The translations under genes and the position numbers were made by a program. Below are positions 2,625 through 18,057 of a stretch of DNA of 21,283 nt, piece after piece. The notes beneath the pieces are model-generated. The model was not told the DNA's origin and did no database searches. It was given only the letters and a program-made list of their open reading frames with translations. Position 1 is the stretch's first letter. Every line of letters starts with the position of its first letter. Source of the DNA: a virus; the IMG/VR virus record IMGVR_UViG_3300020213_000282, positions 1 to 21,283 of that record, one strand, 5' to 3'.

Positions 2625-3347
2625 CTACTGCTTTCCCTGAGCTTTAAGCGCGCGAAGATAATCCACTGACGAGGCAAAAGCATCTGGATTAAGCGTAGCT
2701 CCTGCTGCTCCCGGTCGATTAGACACTGGGTCTATACGAGCGGTTCCATTATCTTTTGTGTGCGTCATTGCGGCTTTTACGGCCGCGTCCGTGTCCCTCA
2801 TGCTTGCGTGTGCAAGGCGGAGGTCTGTGAACTGGTACTTCATTGCGTGCTGCAACAACCTTCCCTCGTTAACTGTTGGGTCACTCTGCTTCACCTCAGT
2901 GAGCTGTGCAACCGCGTTATCTTCGAGAGACTGACGTGCGTCTTGCTCTGCCTGTTGCCGAGCCTGCATACCCCCGAGGATACGCTGCTCAATCTGTTCA
3001 GCAAGAGTGCCATACGTGGGTGGGATGTAATTCGGGTCGTTGAGCGGGTCTGCTTCTGCTGGTTCCGGGCTGCGCTGCTGTCCTTGTCGGAAGGCCGCAA
3101 GGTCCTGAGACCTGCGAGTGAACTCCGGCATAAAGTTCTCTTTCCATTCCTGACTAAGAGTAGCAGCATCCACTTTTCTGCCGTCTGGTAGCTCATAAAG
3201 CTCATTCTCGACTGCGGGGGTGGTTTCCGCTGGTGCATCTGTATCAGGCGCATCCGTTCCTGTCTCGTCAATCGCTGCACCGGCTTCCGTTTCTTCTAAC
3301 GATGTGGCCTCGCTTGGCGATGCGTCGAGGGTTTCTTCTGGGTCCAT
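2625..3347 (-). CDS. capsid scaffolding protein
   Basis: A 240-aa protein starting at ATG 3347. The first 50 residues are strongly acidic and disordered (MDPEETLDASPSEATSLEE and onward, rich in D, E, A, T and P). The centre (about residues 100-175) is a Gln/Glu/Ala/Arg-rich helix likely to form a coiled coil (AEQIEQRILGGMQARQQAEQ). The C-terminus is more basic and ends RALKAQGKQ, like the capsid-binding tails of scaffolding proteins. It lies directly upstream of the major capsid gene and downstream of the portal. The call rests on position, length and composition, since scaffolds share little sequence. No protease motif is seen. Confidence 0.75.
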   Translation of the reverse strand: MDPEETLDASPSEATSLEETEAGAAIDETGTDAPDTDAPAETTPAVENELYELPDGRKVDAATLSQEWKENFMPEFTRRSQDLAAFRQGQQRSPEPAEADPLNDPNYIPPTYGTLAEQIEQRILGGMQARQQAEQDARQSLEDNAVAQLTEVKQSDPTVNEGRLLQHAMKYQFTDLRLAHASMRDTDAAVKAAMTHTKDNGTARIDPVSNRPGAAGATLNPDAFASSVDYLRALKAQGKQ

Positions 3348-5849: not shown

Positions 5850-6053
5850 CTATGTAGATCTAATCCTATGCACGTGTTCTACCGATACGGTCTGGAGCTG
5901 CTTGTTTGCAAAGTTAAGTGTTACCTTACCCCACATAACATCAAAAGCTCCACTAGTTTCCATAGCTTCAAAAATTTCAAACCGTTCCCGGAAGACTAGA
6001 AACTGCTTTGCTTCCGCGTCTGGTATATAGATTGGTATAAGTTTATCCACCAT
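5850..6053 (-). CDS. small phage protein downstream of the large terminase
   Basis: A 67-aa product from ATG 6053 (MVDKLIPIYIPDAEAKQFLV...). In-frame ATGs at 6080 and 6101 would lengthen it to 76 or 83 aa, but they overlap the terminase end more deeply. The pattern of an N-terminal IYIPDAEA strand, an amphipathic helix (FRERFEIFEAMETSGAFD) and a closing two-strand segment (GKVTLNFANKQLQTVSV) is one I associate with a small uncharacterised protein often found beside phage packaging genes. The function is unknown. It overlaps the large terminase 3' end by 11 nt, so it is translationally linked to it. Confidence 0.65.
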   Translation of the reverse strand: MVDKLIPIYIPDAEAKQFLVFRERFEIFEAMETSGAFDVMWGKVTLNFANKQLQTVSVEHVHRIRST

Positions 6054-7656
6054 AGCGCCCGTCAGAATATCCTTCTGCATTAGCTGACCTGAATAGTTCA
6101 CTCGGGTCGTACACGTTGTCTACATCAATAGCATGTGGCTTTTCTTCGCCACCACCTCCTGTTCCAAAGAAAGCTCCATCACCTCCACCCGTTGTTGCCA
6201 TCCATGCGTAGAGCGATGCAAAAACGTAGTGGTCAACCCCAGTAGTAGATGCCCAGATGTATCTCTCGATGCCTTTGTTATTTGTTACCTTCTCTCTGCA
6301 CAGTGTTTCAAAGTGTCGTATGTAATCACCGAAGTCACGGTCAGCCGGAGCGGCAATGAGCCACTTTGCTTCTAACATCTCTGTAAGCATGAGGTCTATC
6401 ACGCGGTCACGGTGTGCGTACACAATACCGTCACGGTCACCTTCACCCCTCCAGATAATTGTTTGTGGATTGTCAGCATTCTCTTTAAAGAACGACATTT
6501 CCATAAACGGATACGTGTCTACGTAGTGCTTCGCTGCTGTGTTATCCGGCATCGCGTCAATGACACCTGCCTGTGGTTTCCACGTTGCAATAATAGAATC
6601 GAGGTCTTCCCACTTTGTAAAGCGACCTATCTTAATGATGCCTCCGTGTGTGCGCACAACATAGTGTTTCATGTTGCCCACGTCTACACCGAGGAACCTT
6701 GGTCCTTGGTCGACGTCAGAGAACCTTGGTGTCCATATATCGAGGAGTGCAGCCTTTGTAATCTGCAAGTCTCCTGGCGTGTACGGGAGGCCAAGCACAA
6801 AGTTATTAAAGTATCCAGGGTCCCCCTCCGAGTCTTCAATAACTTCTTCAATAGTTATATCCGGGCACATGAGATGGGAAATGCGGTATCCATGAACACG
6901 CGAACCAGGACGTTGCGCTTGATATACACCACGTCTTCTTGTATCATCACTCAGTTTACCTTCGCACGTTCTGCACTTGTAAAACTTACCTTCAATGTTT
7001 ACAGAGTCCGGCCACACGAGGTCTTGCTCTGCTTTACAGTGCTCGCATGTAATAGTCCATAAACGCTGGTCAGACTTCTGCCAAGCAATATCAAGTTCAT
7101 CGCGCTCTGACCCGGGATTAGAGAATAACCAACGACCTCTGTACGGACTCGCTTTAGTACGAGATTTATATGTCTCAATAGCGGGCTGATTAGAACGAGA
7201 CACCTCATCATGCACAAGTACATCTGCCGACGTCGAGATAGGAGCTGTACTTGATATAGTACCCTTGAAGAACACAAATCTATCATTCAGTTCTTTGCGG
7301 TCTACGTTATCTGTTGCCATCCCACGAAACTCTGAAGGATTACTTTGTAGTATCTTGTTGAACTTCGAAGCGACAAACTCATTCACATCAGACTCAGTTG
7401 GCATTGTGTAGATGACGTTAAAGCGCAAATGCTTAACGGCAAACAATGTCTTTAGTGAGAATGTTACAGACTTTCCTACCTGAGCACATGCCATCACAAC
7501 CTGAAGTGGATGGAAGTCAGTAAGTATATCTAAGAGGAACGGTCGATTCTTCCAATCAAAAGGCTCCCCTTTCTCAGACACAATACCCTCCTCAGTCAAC
7601 CATTGAAGGATGGAAAAGTACTGTTTCTCTTTAATTATTTTATGCTGTCTTGCCAT
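6043..7656 (-). CDS. terL: terminase large subunit (GpA-like packaging ATPase/nuclease)
   Basis: A 537-aa motor that pumps DNA into the prohead and cuts the concatemer. The N-terminal ATPase has a Walker A element ACAQVGKS (residues 56-63) and a Walker B VLVHDE (146-151) with the catalytic Glu151. A zinc-ribbon-like set C204-x2-C207 and C228-x2-C231 follows, typical of the lambda GpA branch. The C-terminal RNase H-like nuclease shows its acidic residues in FLGVDVGN (D325), GVIDAMPD (D367) and GVDHYVFA (D475). A Gly-rich loop and an acidic tail end the protein. The start overlaps the end of GroEL by 17 nt, and the two genes are co-transcribed. All motifs appear intact. No Shine-Dalgarno sequence is present. 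Confidence 0.93.
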   Translation of the reverse strand: MARQHKIIKEKQYFSILQWLTEEGIVSEKGEPFDWKNRPFLLDILTDFHPLQVVMACAQVGKSVTFSLKTLFAVKHLRFNVIYTMPTESDVNEFVASKFNKILQSNPSEFRGMATDNVDRKELNDRFVFFKGTISSTAPISTSADVLVHDEVSRSNQPAIETYKSRTKASPYRGRWLFSNPGSERDELDIAWQKSDQRLWTITCEHCKAEQDLVWPDSVNIEGKFYKCRTCEGKLSDDTRRRGVYQAQRPGSRVHGYRISHLMCPDITIEEVIEDSEGDPGYFNNFVLGLPYTPGDLQITKAALLDIWTPRFSDVDQGPRFLGVDVGNMKHYVVRTHGGIIKIGRFTKWEDLDSIIATWKPQAGVIDAMPDNTAAKHYVDTYPFMEMSFFKENADNPQTIIWRGEGDRDGIVYAHRDRVIDLMLTEMLEAKWLIAAPADRDFGDYIRHFETLCREKVTNNKGIERYIWASTTGVDHYVFASLYAWMATTGGGDGAFFGTGGGGEEKPHAIDVDNVYDPSELFRSANAEGYSDGRYGG

Positions 7657-12529: not shown

Positions 12530-12550
12530 TGGCTATTTAGTTGTCCCCAC

Positions 12551-12564
12551 ATAGAATGTTCTAT
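12551..12564. promoter_or_regulatory. palindromic operator-like site
   Basis: ATAGAA-TG-TTCTAT is a perfect inverted repeat with 6-bp arms, 130 nt upstream of the primase-helicase start. Its half-site TTCTAT also occurs in the promoter word at 11531-11544 and 19009-19022. It could bind a dimeric regulator. Confidence 0.35.
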
Positions 12565-12631
12565 TTCAGAGAAACCTCATGCTATATTTTTACGTATGCA
12601 CCAAACCACTGCCATCTCGTATTTAGCAAAA

Positions 12632-12676
12632 GCCCCCCGATCAATTTCCGCAATGGAGTTGGTGCAGTCGGGGGGC
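12632..12676 (+). other. strong hairpin in the primase-helicase leader
   Basis: GCCCCCCGA (12632-12640) pairs perfectly with TCGGGGGGC (12668-12676). Flanking AAA and TTT can extend the stem with one mismatch. The loop is 27 nt. It ends 17 nt before the ATG at 12694. The T-run is too short for a good terminator, so a translation or RNA-stability role is as likely. Confidence 0.5.
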
Positions 12677-12693
12677 GTTTACTGTACGCGAGT

Positions 12694-14829
12694 ATGAAAC
12701 TCCAGCGCCGTTGGGTAGTTTGGAACGCTGAGGAGGTGAATGGTCGCAAGACTAAGGTTCCCTATTCTGTAAAGGGTCATCGTGCATCGTCCACCGACCC
12801 GAAGGACTGGTGCACGTATGCAGAGGCGAAGAAGGCATCCGAGTTCTTTTCCGGTATCGGTATCATCTTCGGTCCCGACAAGCTCTTGCTCGGAATAGAT
12901 ATCGACCACGTCCTTGTCCCTAACGCGAAGGGAGTACCCATCATCGACAAATCACATGGCGAAGCTGAAAACATCGCAAGACTTATCAAGGAAGCTGGCA
13001 CGTATACAGAAGTCTCTCCGTCCGGCACCGGCCTTCACCTCTACCTCGCCATCGAGGAGCCCCTCGCGCTCGACGCCAATCGGCACTCACCGTATGAGGC
13101 ATATACTTCAGGACGTTTCTTTACGTATAGCGAGCAGGTTTTCGGTACGCGTAAGGCGATTCGGTTAGTTTCCAAAGCCGAGGCCCTGCGGTTGCTTGAG
13201 ATGGTTGGGTATCCTTGGAAAGCTAAGCCACAGAGCACCTTGCTCGCAGACGAGGAGCTGCTCGAACGCATGTTCAAGTCCAAGAACGGTGACGCTGCAC
13301 GCGCATTGTACGAAGGGGACACCTCAGCGTACCTCGACTCTAAGGGTAAGCCTGACCTCTCACGGGCGGACGCTGGCCTCATTGCGCGTCTGGCGTTCTG
13401 GACGCGCAAGGACGCCGTGCAGATGGATCGCATCTGGCTCGCCTCTCCTTTAGGGAAGCGCGAGAAGACTCAGAAGCGTGTTGACTACCGCGTGCGCACC
13501 ATCGCCGCCGCCAACAAGAATTGCACGGAGGTGTACCGCACGGATGAGACGGGTATCGAGTTTCTGTTCACGCTGAACGCAAGAAAAGAAAAGATTATCA
13601 GCAAGAATACCGAGAACGTGGCACGAGCGCTTAGTGGACACCCTGAGTTCAATATCCGCTTTGACGAGTTCAAGAACCGTATTGAGATAGGCGTGGACGA
13701 TAACACCCGCTATCGCCCGTTGTCTGACAGCGACGCCATCGCGGTGCAGACCCGGCTGTCTATCCTGTTTGAGTTCCTTCGCACAGTCAGCAAGGATATG
13801 GTCTTCGACGCCATCGTTAAGGTTGCCAAGGACAATCGCATCGACTCGGCTGCCGACTATATTCGGTCACTGACATGGGACGGCACTCCCCGAATCGACA
13901 CATGGCTTCACGAAACCTACGGGACCACCGACGACATATACCACCGGGCGGTTGGATCCAACGTATTGAAGGGTCTGGTAAAGCGTATCGTCAAGCCTGG
14001 GTGCAAGTTCGACTACGTCCTTGTGCTGGAAGGCCCACAGGGGGCAAAGAAGTCTACGAGCCTATCCATCCTTGGCGCACTCCCTAGCGGGGATAATTGG
14101 CACGTGGAGAGCACCATGACCCCGGACAACAAGGACTTTTTCATGCAGTTCGAAGGTAAGGCACTGATCGAGATGTCCGAGGGTGAGACGTTGAGCCGTA
14201 CTGAGGTGAAAAAAATGAAGGCAGTCATCACCACGGCCGTCGATCGCTACCGCCCCTCTTACGGTCGTGTGGCTGAGGACTTCCCTCGCCGGTGTATCTT
14301 TGCCATGACCACAAACCAGGAGGAGTACCTCAAGGATGAGACGGGCAATCGTCGCTGGCTCCCTGTGCGTGTCATGCTCGCGCAGGCCAACGTCGAGTGG
14401 CTTGCCATCAACCGCGATCAGCTCTTGGCTGAGGCGTACCAGCGTGTGATCGTCGAGAAGGAGACTACGTATGAGTTTCCTGAGGAGGAGACGCTTGCCC
14501 AGCAGAGCGCACGCCTCGTTTCTGACCCTAACGAGGAGCGAATCGTGGAGTGGTATCACGGGAAGGACTTCGGTCCGCATTGCCGTGAGGAAGGTATAAC
14601 GGTGCAGGAGGTCTTCGTCGGCGCACTTGGCAATATGCCTAGCCAGTCTATGAAGAAGTACGAGGAGATGCAGATTGCGAACGTTCTCAGCACGGTACTT
14701 AAACTGGAGAAGATACGCCGAATGGTCAATGGCCACCAGACTACTCGCTGGGTTGACCCGACGATTGTTGAGGACGCTCCGGTTCCCGTTGCTGCCGGCG
14801 TCTGGGATGACCTTCTTAAAAATGATTAA
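12694..14829 (+). CDS. primase-helicase: PrimPol-type N-terminus fused to VapE/D5-type helicase
   Basis: A 711-aa protein from ATG 12694 (MKLQRRWVVWN); upstream in-frame codons run back through the leader hairpin and are not protein-like. The N-terminal part has the primase-polymerase signature: GIDID (D69, D71) and SPSGTGLHLYL with the metal- and nucleotide-site Ser-Gly-His, followed by SGRFFTYS. The C-terminal helicase belongs to the virulence-associated E group of SF3-like/D5 ATPases: Walker A GPQGAKKST (about 447-455), Walker B ALIEMSEGE (about 490-498), and the characteristic TTNQEEYLKDETGNRRWLPV near residue 540. It would open the origin and prime replication. It lies next to the repeat array, and its end overlaps the RecB-like nuclease by 8 nt. 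Codon use is GC-rich compared with the left arm. Confidence 0.88.
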   Translation: MKLQRRWVVWNAEEVNGRKTKVPYSVKGHRASSTDPKDWCTYAEAKKASEFFSGIGIIFGPDKLLLGIDIDHVLVPNAKGVPIIDKSHGEAENIARLIKEAGTYTEVSPSGTGLHLYLAIEEPLALDANRHSPYEAYTSGRFFTYSEQVFGTRKAIRLVSKAEALRLLEMVGYPWKAKPQSTLLADEELLERMFKSKNGDAARALYEGDTSAYLDSKGKPDLSRADAGLIARLAFWTRKDAVQMDRIWLASPLGKREKTQKRVDYRVRTIAAANKNCTEVYRTDETGIEFLFTLNARKEKIISKNTENVARALSGHPEFNIRFDEFKNRIEIGVDDNTRYRPLSDSDAIAVQTRLSILFEFLRTVSKDMVFDAIVKVAKDNRIDSAADYIRSLTWDGTPRIDTWLHETYGTTDDIYHRAVGSNVLKGLVKRIVKPGCKFDYVLVLEGPQGAKKSTSLSILGALPSGDNWHVESTMTPDNKDFFMQFEGKALIEMSEGETLSRTEVKKMKAVITTAVDRYRPSYGRVAEDFPRRCIFAMTTNQEEYLKDETGNRRWLPVRVMLAQANVEWLAINRDQLLAEAYQRVIVEKETTYEFPEEETLAQQSARLVSDPNEERIVEWYHGKDFGPHCREEGITVQEVFVGALGNMPSQSMKKYEEMQIANVLSTVLKLEKIRRMVNGHQTTRWVDPTIVEDAPVPVAAGVWDDLLKND

Positions 14830-16131: not shown

Positions 16132-18057
16132 ATGAACCTTCGACCCGCACAGGAACGCATCCTTAAAGAGAACCCCAGTAAGGCACTCCTGAATTGGGAG
16201 ATGCGATGTATTCATCCTGACACTTTAATTTATGATCCTGTTAAAAAAGAAAGTTATAAAGTAAAAGACATAAAGAATGATTTCCATGTTTACTCTAAAA
16301 ATGAAGATGGCCTTATTGTAATAGCCGAAGCTGAAAGACCAATTCAGTACGGCATGGCACCAATGATTGAGATTTCTTTCTTTAACAAAGAAAGAATAGT
16401 AGTCACACCTCTGCACCGCTTTTTTCTCGGTGCTTCCTGGGTCTACGCGTACCAGCTAATATCCTCGCCCTCCCCTCTTCCGTCCATTTCGGAACACGAC
16501 CCTTCAGTGTTATTCGCAAATGTTCACCATTGTTCTGGAACAATCGTAAATTTTCTACTCTATTGTCATCCTTTATTCCGTTTTTGTGGTCAACTACTTC
16601 AGTGGGTAGTAAATATCTACCAAGGCTTTCTTCCATCACTAATCGGTGCTCTGACACTGTCCTGTTTTTCTTTCTGTAAGGATGTTCTGGGGTATATATT
16701 TCCACATATCCCTTTGAATACCTCCTCCCACCTTTCCAAGACGAATGAGTGCTGCCGTGTTGATAAGAATGACCTGAACGAATTTGAACTCCATTCTTTG
16801 TTAGCACAGCAAGTATTATCCTCTCATGTACACCAAAGATTTTTCTTATCTTATCTTTTGACAAACCTTTATTGTAAAGTTCTAAACACTTTTCAATCAT
16901 ACGCAAAGTATACTACTATTAGGGAAGCTAGGATAGTCCAGTCTCAAAGGTACTACGATTTTCACGTGCCCTTACATAATAATTATCTTTGCTCAGGAGT
17001 AGTAAATCATAATACAGGCAAGTCGCTCCCAGCTGCCGTCTGGGCCGATCACCCGTCACGCGATGGCAACGCGTACATTATTACCCGCAAGGCGAACGTG
17101 ACCGATTGGAAGAAACATAAGACGAAGGCGAAGGTGATCACGAAGGAGCAGTTCCGGAAGGAGGATATCGTTGACCCTACGGCGCTCGTCATAGATGAGG
17201 CGCACTTTTTTGCGTCCCCTTTATTCCTCAAGGGTCGCTCTCAGCTTGCCACCAAGCTGTATACGCTGGTGAAGCGATACCCTGAGTGTCATATCCTTTT
17301 GCTGACGGCTACCCCGGTCAAGAACGACGCATGGTCCCTGCACACCCTATTTTGCTACATGGGTCTGTACTACGACTGGAAGGAGTGGCGTACCATGTTC
17401 TTCGAGCAGCGTCCCATGCCCTACCTACCGCGACCTCGTTGGATGCCTGTTGGTCAGGTTCCCACGGCATGGGTACCCCGAGGGAACTGGCGCGAGCTCT
17501 TGCAGCCGTTCCTTGAGAAGCATAGCGACACGGAGGTGCTAGGCAAGGAGGACAAGGACGATATCATCGTGCAAGTGAAACAGCCTGTATATAAAAAGCC
17601 CGAGGACCAACTTGTTACCTGGACCCATGAGCACAAGCACGAGCAGGTGGGGAAGGCCGAGCGGGTGCTCGCCCTTCCGTACCGCAAGGCTATCGTCGCC
17701 GCCCACTATACCTACCAGATTGACGAGCTCAAGGAGGCGCTGGGGGCCGTCCGGCCCGTCTTTGTGATGGATGGTCGCACCAAGGACCCGGACGCCGTCC
17801 TGAAGGCTGCACAGGAGGCTGAGGAGGGGTATCTTTTGGTTCAGGCTTCTATGGGATACGGTTGGGACGGCTGGATGTTCGAGGCGCTCGTCTTCGCCTC
17901 CATGGCGCACCCCTGTGTCCACCACACGCAGATGAGGGGGCGCCTACGCTCCATAGAGCACCTTGCGCCCGTCGATAACGTCTACCTGATTGGTGGCCGG
18001 TGGGACAAGAAAATATACGATACTGTAAAAGCTGGCCATGACTTCCAAGCTCCCTGA
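16132..18057 (+). CDS. SNF2/DEAH-type helicase interrupted by an intein in the P-loop
   Basis: The full frame is 641 aa; removing the 269-aa intein (residues 26-294) leaves a 372-aa superfamily 2 helicase. Motif I is split: the N-extein ends LLNWEMR and the C-extein resumes [10 protein letters not shown], together giving EMRTGKS, comparable to the EMGLGKT of SNF2 proteins. Motif II is VIDEAHFF (D355-H358), motif [10 protein letters not shown] (T392-T394), and motif VI QMRGRLR (Q600-R606). The helicase is compact, like phage UvsW/SNF2-like remodelling helicases. It would unwind or branch-migrate DNA, fitting the SSB, nuclease and resolvase around it. Without protein splicing the ATP site is destroyed, so activity depends on the intein. 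Its 3' end overlaps the resolvase-like gene by 20 nt. Extein DNA is GC-rich. Confidence 0.88.
16207..17013 (+). mobile_element. intein (269 aa) with an antisense endonuclease gene inside
   Basis: Splicing block A starts at Cys1, [10 protein letters not shown] (16207-16236). Block B is [10 protein letters not shown] with the T-x-x-H (about 16402-16431). Block F/G is [21 protein letters not shown], ending in the terminal His-Asn (17008-17013), with Thr as the +1 residue. No LAGLIDADG or sense-strand HNH lies between blocks B and F. Instead this part is the complement of the leftward HNH gene 16403-16900, while the sense frame has no stop. The element is AT-rich: 27% G+C in 16201-16260 and 35% in 16561-16620, against 60% in 17041-17100 of the extein. 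That indicates recent arrival. The splicing residues look intact, so splicing is expected. Confidence 0.9.
16403..16900 (-). CDS. HNH homing endonuclease encoded antisense within the intein
   Basis: A 165-aa product from ATG 16900; a TTG at 16906 would add two residues. The N-terminal 40 residues form a helix-turn-helix-like segment ([19 protein letters not shown], then [11 protein letters not shown]) suited to DNA binding. The HNH_3-type nuclease follows: [51 protein letters not shown], with the D-H (104-105), the central N and the final N-x-x (N117) of the beta-beta-alpha-metal motif. The tail is basic. Its TGA (16405-16403) falls in the codons for V-T of intein block B, so the last codons overlap the splicing domain. 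TATACT lies 7 nt upstream of the ATG, without a -35. It probably spreads the intein by cutting intein-free helicase genes. Confidence 0.85.

Follow-up and report, generated by a model that had tools for sequence, protein, structure and literature searches.

An HNH nuclease gene on the complementary strand of an intein in a phage helicase

Homing inteins described so far carry a nuclease that is fused in frame, which makes production of the nuclease dependent on the host protein and on splicing. A viral sequence of 21,283 nucleotides (IMG/VR record IMGVR_UViG_3300020213_000282, positions 1 to 21,283; here called the window) raises the question whether a homing intein can instead keep its endonuclease in a gene of its own on the complementary strand. 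The first-pass annotation of the window had described such a case: an intein without the usual in-frame endonuclease domain, along which a gene for a helix-turn-helix (HTH) plus HNH_3 nuclease runs antisense while the sense frame stays free of stops. Each of these elements is borne out by the analysis below, and the reading that the locus is a homing intein whose endonuclease is encoded separately on the other strand is given a probability of about 0.9. The features of the locus are as follows.

16132-18057, plus strand: helicase open reading frame (ORF) interrupted by the intein, with no stop in the sense frame.
16132-16206, plus strand: N-extein of a phage SNF2/DEAD-like helicase, 25 aa, ending in ...LLNWEMR (ORF; phrog_62).
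16207-17013, plus strand: complete intein of 269 aa, with Cys1 at 16207-16209 and the His-Asn end at 17008-17013 (Pfam Intein_splicing, invariant columns, Hint fold).
16207-16461, plus strand: N-terminal splicing part, intein residues 1-85, which holds blocks A and B, the latter with its TPLH at 16405-16416 (AlphaFold pLDDT by 10-residue blocks).
16462-16908, plus strand: sense linker, residues 86-234, complement of the HNH gene; open, predicted to be disordered (pLDDT about 42).
16909-17013, plus strand: C-terminal splicing part with blocks F and G, YYDFHVP...VVNHN (pLDDT 95-98; invariant Asn).
17014-18057, plus strand: C-extein of the helicase, starting TGKS with Thr at +1 (ORF; phrog_62).
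16403-16900, minus strand: HNH homing-endonuclease gene, 165 aa, ATG at 16900-16898 and TGA at 16405-16403 (HNH_3; phrog_10730).
16781-16900, minus strand: HTH DNA-binding part, nuclease residues about 1-40 (predicted helices H2-10, H15-22 and H26-35; pLDDT about 90).
16535-16651, minus strand: HNH_3 catalytic domain, residues 84-122, EHRLVME...EVVDHKNG...DNRVENL (Pfam, alignment, model).

The ORF at 16132-18057 matches the DNA helicases of phrog_62 (E=7e-14), and when its exteins are joined, EMR is followed directly by TGKS, which restores the Walker A motif in which the intein is seated. The intein begins with Cys directly after EMR and ends with VVNHN directly before TGKS. It has Cys at residue 1, TPLH for the TxxH of block B, a C-terminal HN followed by Thr, and the Hint fold, as in class-1 inteins; Pfam Intein_splicing matches the whole protein with E=1e-5 and the joined intein ends with E=7e-7. 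Among 45 relatives only four columns are invariant, i.e., those of Cys26 (Cys1), His95 (block B), Val279 (block F) and Asn294 (C-terminal) of the precursor. In the AlphaFold model of the intein family, pLDDT is 93-98 for residues 1-80 and 95-98 from about residue 241, with values of about 42 over most of the linker between them, and the model is matched by PDB entry 1mi8 (Foldseek E=1e-5, probability 1.00; profile match E=1e-22) and also by 2in0. The two intein ends are thus predicted with confidence to form a Hint fold, the linker to be disordered and the HNH protein to be folded. The sense linker has no Pfam match to any endonuclease family; a resemblance of this stretch to an intein endonuclease domain had been named in the first-pass annotation as one result that would refute its proposal. 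Kin of the helicase were sought by protein in phage records and viral contigs, and none was found there. Elsewhere in the window, a gene for a GroEL-like phage chaperonin (7640-9193, minus strand; phrog_5725, E=4e-109) adjoins that for the terminase large subunit (6043-7656), and a primase-helicase with NrS-1 polymerase-like HBD and VapE-like domains (Pfam 4e-13 and 2e-63) is encoded at 12541-14829 on the plus strand.

On the complementary strand, the HNH gene was re-read from its ATG at 16900 to 16403, wholly within the sense ORF, and its TGA spans the V-T codons immediately before TPLH of block B, just where it had been placed. The product matches Pfam HNH_3 (E=2e-10) and phrog_10730 (E=9e-25), and HNH_3 is likewise matched by all 22 HNH relatives that were tested, several HNH relatives having Pfam matches to HTH domains as well. 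Its predicted structure combines the catalytic domain with a DNA-recognition module, a three-helix HTH at the N-terminus, as expected of an HNH_3 homing endonuclease.

The arrangement is not confined to the window. Two scans of viral contigs that used HNH sequences only gave 163 loci, composed of the 83 closest relatives of the window gene and the best 80 of a more divergent profile. In every one of the 163 the HNH gene lies antisense in an open sense ORF and in the same phase, and intein ends can be recognised in 161, so that the arrangement is conserved among related phages. As sole query, the window HNH retrieved three close relatives, L001-L003; all three run antisense to an intein whose sense frame is open, and in all three the host is a terminase gene. 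When these HNHs were made into a profile, the best 80 of at least 555 relatives all lay, in one and the same phase, on the strand opposite a long open ORF, and none of the more distant HNH relatives scored in that scan had such an arrangement. The intein C-end, (H/K)N followed by (S/T/C), is present in 84 of 84 members including the window, and their hosts are P-loop ATPases; Cys1 was placed wherever the contig reaches it and was not recovered in three contigs that end on the 5' side, and in L002, whose contig ends inside the intein, the Cys assigned is wrong. For the second profile, built from more divergent members, all of the best 80 loci are open in the same phase and 78 of them have intein ends by pattern.

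Pfam Intein_splicing is matched by 37 of 45 sense ORFs of the relatives, and the host genes among these 45 include 16 Terminase_6N, 4 Terminase_3 and one clamp loader. The hosts are mostly terminases, with helicases and the clamp loader besides. Non-terminase hosts are exemplified by a 2075-codon helicase-like ORF of Polaromonas sp. CG9_12 (L150, 2-6226, minus strand; L153 is the same copy at the opposite end of the contig) and by a clamp-loader gene of the DNA polymerase III delta' type (L119, 1931-3835, minus strand), both with an antisense-HNH intein. The HNH of L119 is placed elsewhere in a weakly supported tree, and a separate origin in the same phase is possible in this case. In the HNH tree as a whole there are 9 label changes, compared with about 30 when labels are shuffled, at near-zero support for the key split, so that the tree is compatible with one as well as with several origins of the antisense HNHs.

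Nine bacterial assemblies carry the arrangement (Opitutae, Phycisphaeraceae, two Acidobacteria, Methylococcaceae, Deltaproteobacteria, an actinobacterium, Nitrosospira and Polaromonas), and so do nine named phages, i.e., Pectobacterium phage Sabo, the further Pectobacterium phages Taid, Pappous, Ymer, Abuela, Koroua and Amona, Dickeya phage Setonix and Pseudoalteromonas phage PHS3. These six further Pectobacterium phages and Setonix each have an HNH that is 95-98% identical. Five further candidates were rejected as carriers because the HNH or its match lies on the same strand: Rhodococcus phage Shagrat and Mycobacterium phage Bipolar by their HNH, and Providencia PSTNGR2lys, Gordonia FlyingTortilla and GAL1 by their matches.

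Consider now how the nuclease may be expressed. Starts of the HNH genes were picked without reference to Shine-Dalgarno sites and with a preference for ATG in a fixed range; 54 of 55 HNHs start with ATG, the median distance from there to the intein C-end being 41.7 codons (quartiles 39.7-42.7), and given this choice of starts it is the tightness of the position that is informative and not the share of ATG. Upstream of these starts the mean pairing energy with the anti-Shine-Dalgarno sequence is -3.7 kcal/mol, compared with -1.8 kcal/mol for shuffled sequences, and strong Shine-Dalgarno sites occur in 9 relatives where 1.2 are expected. With such signals the nuclease may be made independently of helicase expression and splicing, as the first-pass annotation had supposed. 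Upstream of the HNH gene in the window itself, neither a Shine-Dalgarno site nor a match to a sigma-70-like promoter is seen, and this copy is the only one known of its lineage, as would be the case if the nuclease had decayed in this virus and the window held an inactive relic. That reading is unlikely, since the ORF has its full length, all columns that are invariant among the 22 HNH relatives are intact in the window copy, and the protein is modelled with confidence (pLDDT 85).

Evidence for mobility comes from the terminase relatives, where a nuclease lies in a self-splicing element at its target site and empty sites occur in related genes. Among the 80 terminases closest to that of L055, 78 are intein-free at the same site. 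The N-extein of L055 is at least 90% like that of L054, and its intein is 95% like the L054 intein, whereas its C-extein is unlike L054 (67-77% near the site) and at least 88% like L056; by these similarities the L055 terminase is a chimera with its break at the intein. By the same kind of comparison L092, with exteins about 95% like those of L048 and L049 but an intein only 57% alike, is an intein swap at one site. When loci were searched by the intein C-end instead of by the HNH, the 80 loci listed included 75 with an intact antisense HNH, one in which it is interrupted by the contig end, and four mini-inteins, of which two lack the HNH and two retain a short piece of it on the antisense strand. 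L309 and L329 are mini-inteins without the sense linker; the remnants are found in L322 (3292-3462, minus strand) and L332 (1190-1354, minus strand), the latter with a PNWT..GK motif.

For other inteins the stages of a homing cycle, with empty site, occupied site and mini-intein, are established, and the empty sites, swaps, chimeric terminase and mini-inteins with remnants seen here are, as far as sequences can tell, consistent with such a cycle. Relatives in which the HNH is lost and the sense frame kept had been named beforehand as a case that would refute the antisense-nuclease proposal. They do exist (L309, L322, L329 and L332), but the refutation does not follow, because they are mini-inteins, which the homing cycle leads one to expect. 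The same data bear on the idea that the nuclease is translated and selected without driving homing, the intein being merely a shelter for a protein with another phage role such as exclusion of competitors or packaging. Phage HNH proteins can serve in such roles; still, homing predicts that inteins pass from one terminase to a divergent one at a single exact site, are exchanged there and leave a chimeric recipient, as is seen here, and a role outside homing is unlikely.

It remains to account for the open sense frame. In the chance model used here, the HNH protein is held fixed, its codons are redrawn from the codon usage of the exteins, and stops in the sense frame are counted. For the window, the redrawn sequences contain 5.6 stops on average in the intein frame, and none of 2000 draws is open. 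When the relatives are grouped into 37 independent clusters at 70% HNH identity, the intein frame is stop-free in all 37, compared with 1.8-11.7 stops expected; neither of the two remaining antisense phases is open in any cluster. It is therefore barely credible that a free-standing HNH gene, of a kind common in phages, landed recently by chance antisense in an ordinary intein, with an open frame by luck and no lasting relation between the two: the intein of the window is indeed more AT-rich than its surroundings, with GC down to 0.375, but arrangement and phase are common to all 163 related viral loci, the frame is open in every cluster, and the HNH start position is conserved across clusters.

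In the shared phase, codon position 3 of the HNH gene lies opposite sense position 2, which means that the strand under selection can be read from the positions of substitutions. In 142 close pairs, 61-71% of the differences in exteins and intein ends fall at sense position 3, whereas 58% of those in the overlap fall at sense position 2, i.e., at HNH position 3; the pairs are not independent of each other, but the reversal at the borders of the overlap is a comparison made within each pair. Changes that are silent in the HNH and alter the sense residue occur at 2.27 times opportunity, and changes that create a sense stop at 0.16 times opportunity. From this follows that the nuclease is conserved and the linker residues drift, while the sense frame is kept open. 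Codon-level comparison in both frames, which the first-pass annotation had proposed as a check, accordingly finds the HNH frame under purifying selection in the relatives. That the functional product is instead the linker, as an in-frame endonuclease or regulatory domain that has escaped recognition, opposite a decayed or fortuitous HNH, would explain why the sense frame is always open, but it is very improbable, since substitutions gather at HNH third and sense second positions, the linker is predicted to be disordered and is absent from mini-inteins, its hydropathy has no consistent direction of selection across relatives, and every HNH tested matches HNH_3. In one cluster the HNH reaches back to intein residue 22, so that its tail overlaps the coding region of block B, and there all three codon positions evolve about 3-4 fold slower than in the first residues (0.046/0.040/0.172 compared with 0.159/0.152/0.593).

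The favoured reading, a homing intein with its endonuclease on the complementary strand, can then be put as a sequence of steps. The sense strand encodes a class-1 intein, in which two ends form the Hint splicing domain and are joined by a long, dispensable linker, and the complement of this linker, extending into the codons of block B, encodes an HTH-HNH nuclease that starts at an ATG of its own, some 40 codons ahead of the C-end of the intein. The helicase would be made with the intein inside, and the intein, to judge by its intact catalytic residues and fold, would excise itself. The nuclease would be made from a transcript of the antisense strand, would thus depend neither on the host protein nor on splicing, and would bind and cut the intein-free Walker A site, whereupon repair would copy the intein in, a step for which the empty sites, swaps and chimeric terminase of the relatives speak. 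Selection, as the substitution patterns show, holds the HNH sequence and the stop-free sense frame while linker residues drift. Loss of the HNH followed by in-frame deletion would give a mini-intein, of the kind that is seen.

The two-strand arrangement looks like a widespread and overlooked packing of two proteins into one piece of selfish DNA. The balance tips slightly towards a broader proposition: that phage homing inteins have a major architecture, so far unrecognised, with an antisense nuclease; that it is concentrated in the Walker A motif of terminases and other P-loop ATPases; that strand separation uncouples nuclease expression from splicing and from a host gene that is often late, as for terminase; and that the block B overlap is truly dual coding for two functional proteins. 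If such uncoupling is real, homing could take place at a different time of infection. Surveys that seek an in-frame endonuclease would file these inteins under unidentified insert, and annotation suffers in either of two ways. In Pectobacterium phage Sabo (L178, PQ008974, 1607-3871, minus strand) the nuclease is missed, the terminase-intein ORF being annotated as hypothetical and the HNH not at all; in Pseudoalteromonas phage PHS3 (L181, KX912252, 1670-3648) the HNH is annotated and the terminase truncated. The family also constitutes a natural, many-times replicated set of antisense overlapping genes in which selection can be measured for each strand, and its named, cultured carrier phages make expression timing, splicing and homing directly testable.

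How does this architecture compare with known systems? Mini-inteins share the splicing domain of about 130 aa, and four relatives are mini-inteins, whereas the window intein keeps a full nuclease gene. I-HmuI and other HNH homing endonucleases of group I introns also combine an HNH nuclease with an HTH, and I-HmuI (1u3e) is the best Foldseek match of the nuclease, although not a significant one (E=0.37); the window nuclease differs in residing in a protein intein and on the antisense strand. Canonical homing inteins, with in-frame LAGLIDADG or HNH endonucleases, are alike in the Hint domain, in the conserved active-site insertion and in having the endonuclease between blocks B and F, and an in-frame HNH_3 endonuclease is found in the dCTP deaminase intein of cyanophage CL131 (PMC6293099). 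In contrast, the window endonuclease is on the other strand, outside the spliced-out polypeptide and in need of its own transcript, and the corresponding sense stretch is a linker predicted to be disordered.

In the open literature, a scope outside which preprints and subscription papers mostly fall, no paper was found that describes an intein with an antisense endonuclease gene. A preprint by Gosselin, Arsenault and Gogarten, 'Actinobacteriophage Inteins: ... Non-Canonical Architecture' (bioRxiv 2025.01.02.630785), concerns, in the form in which it is cited in PMC11855218, non-canonical phage inteins with overlapping frames, and to that extent it may overlap with the present architecture. Some overlaps of other kinds were encountered among the loci. 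In a Nitrospira MAG (L166, 1352-4318, minus strand; HNH at 2833-3303, plus strand) an HNH lies antisense in an open ORF that resembles DNA methylases and in which no intein ends can be recognised; it is possibly an antisense counterpart of the ShiLan insertion. A DNA methylase ORF of Cylindrospermopsis phage Cr-LKS3 (L179, OM373202, 2456-4306) has an HNH on the same strand in another frame and resembles the ShiLan type outside actinophages, and same-strand, out-of-frame HNH overlaps occur also in a huge uncultured phage (L180) and in L143. The ShiLan domain, a hidden HNH insertion in actinophage methylases, on the same strand, out of frame and with no splicing domain detected (PMC11855218), is the closest published case in the open literature. 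As in the window, its HNH shares DNA with an open frame through which the host protein continues, but the HNH of the window is on the opposite strand and inside a complete intein with a full Hint domain.
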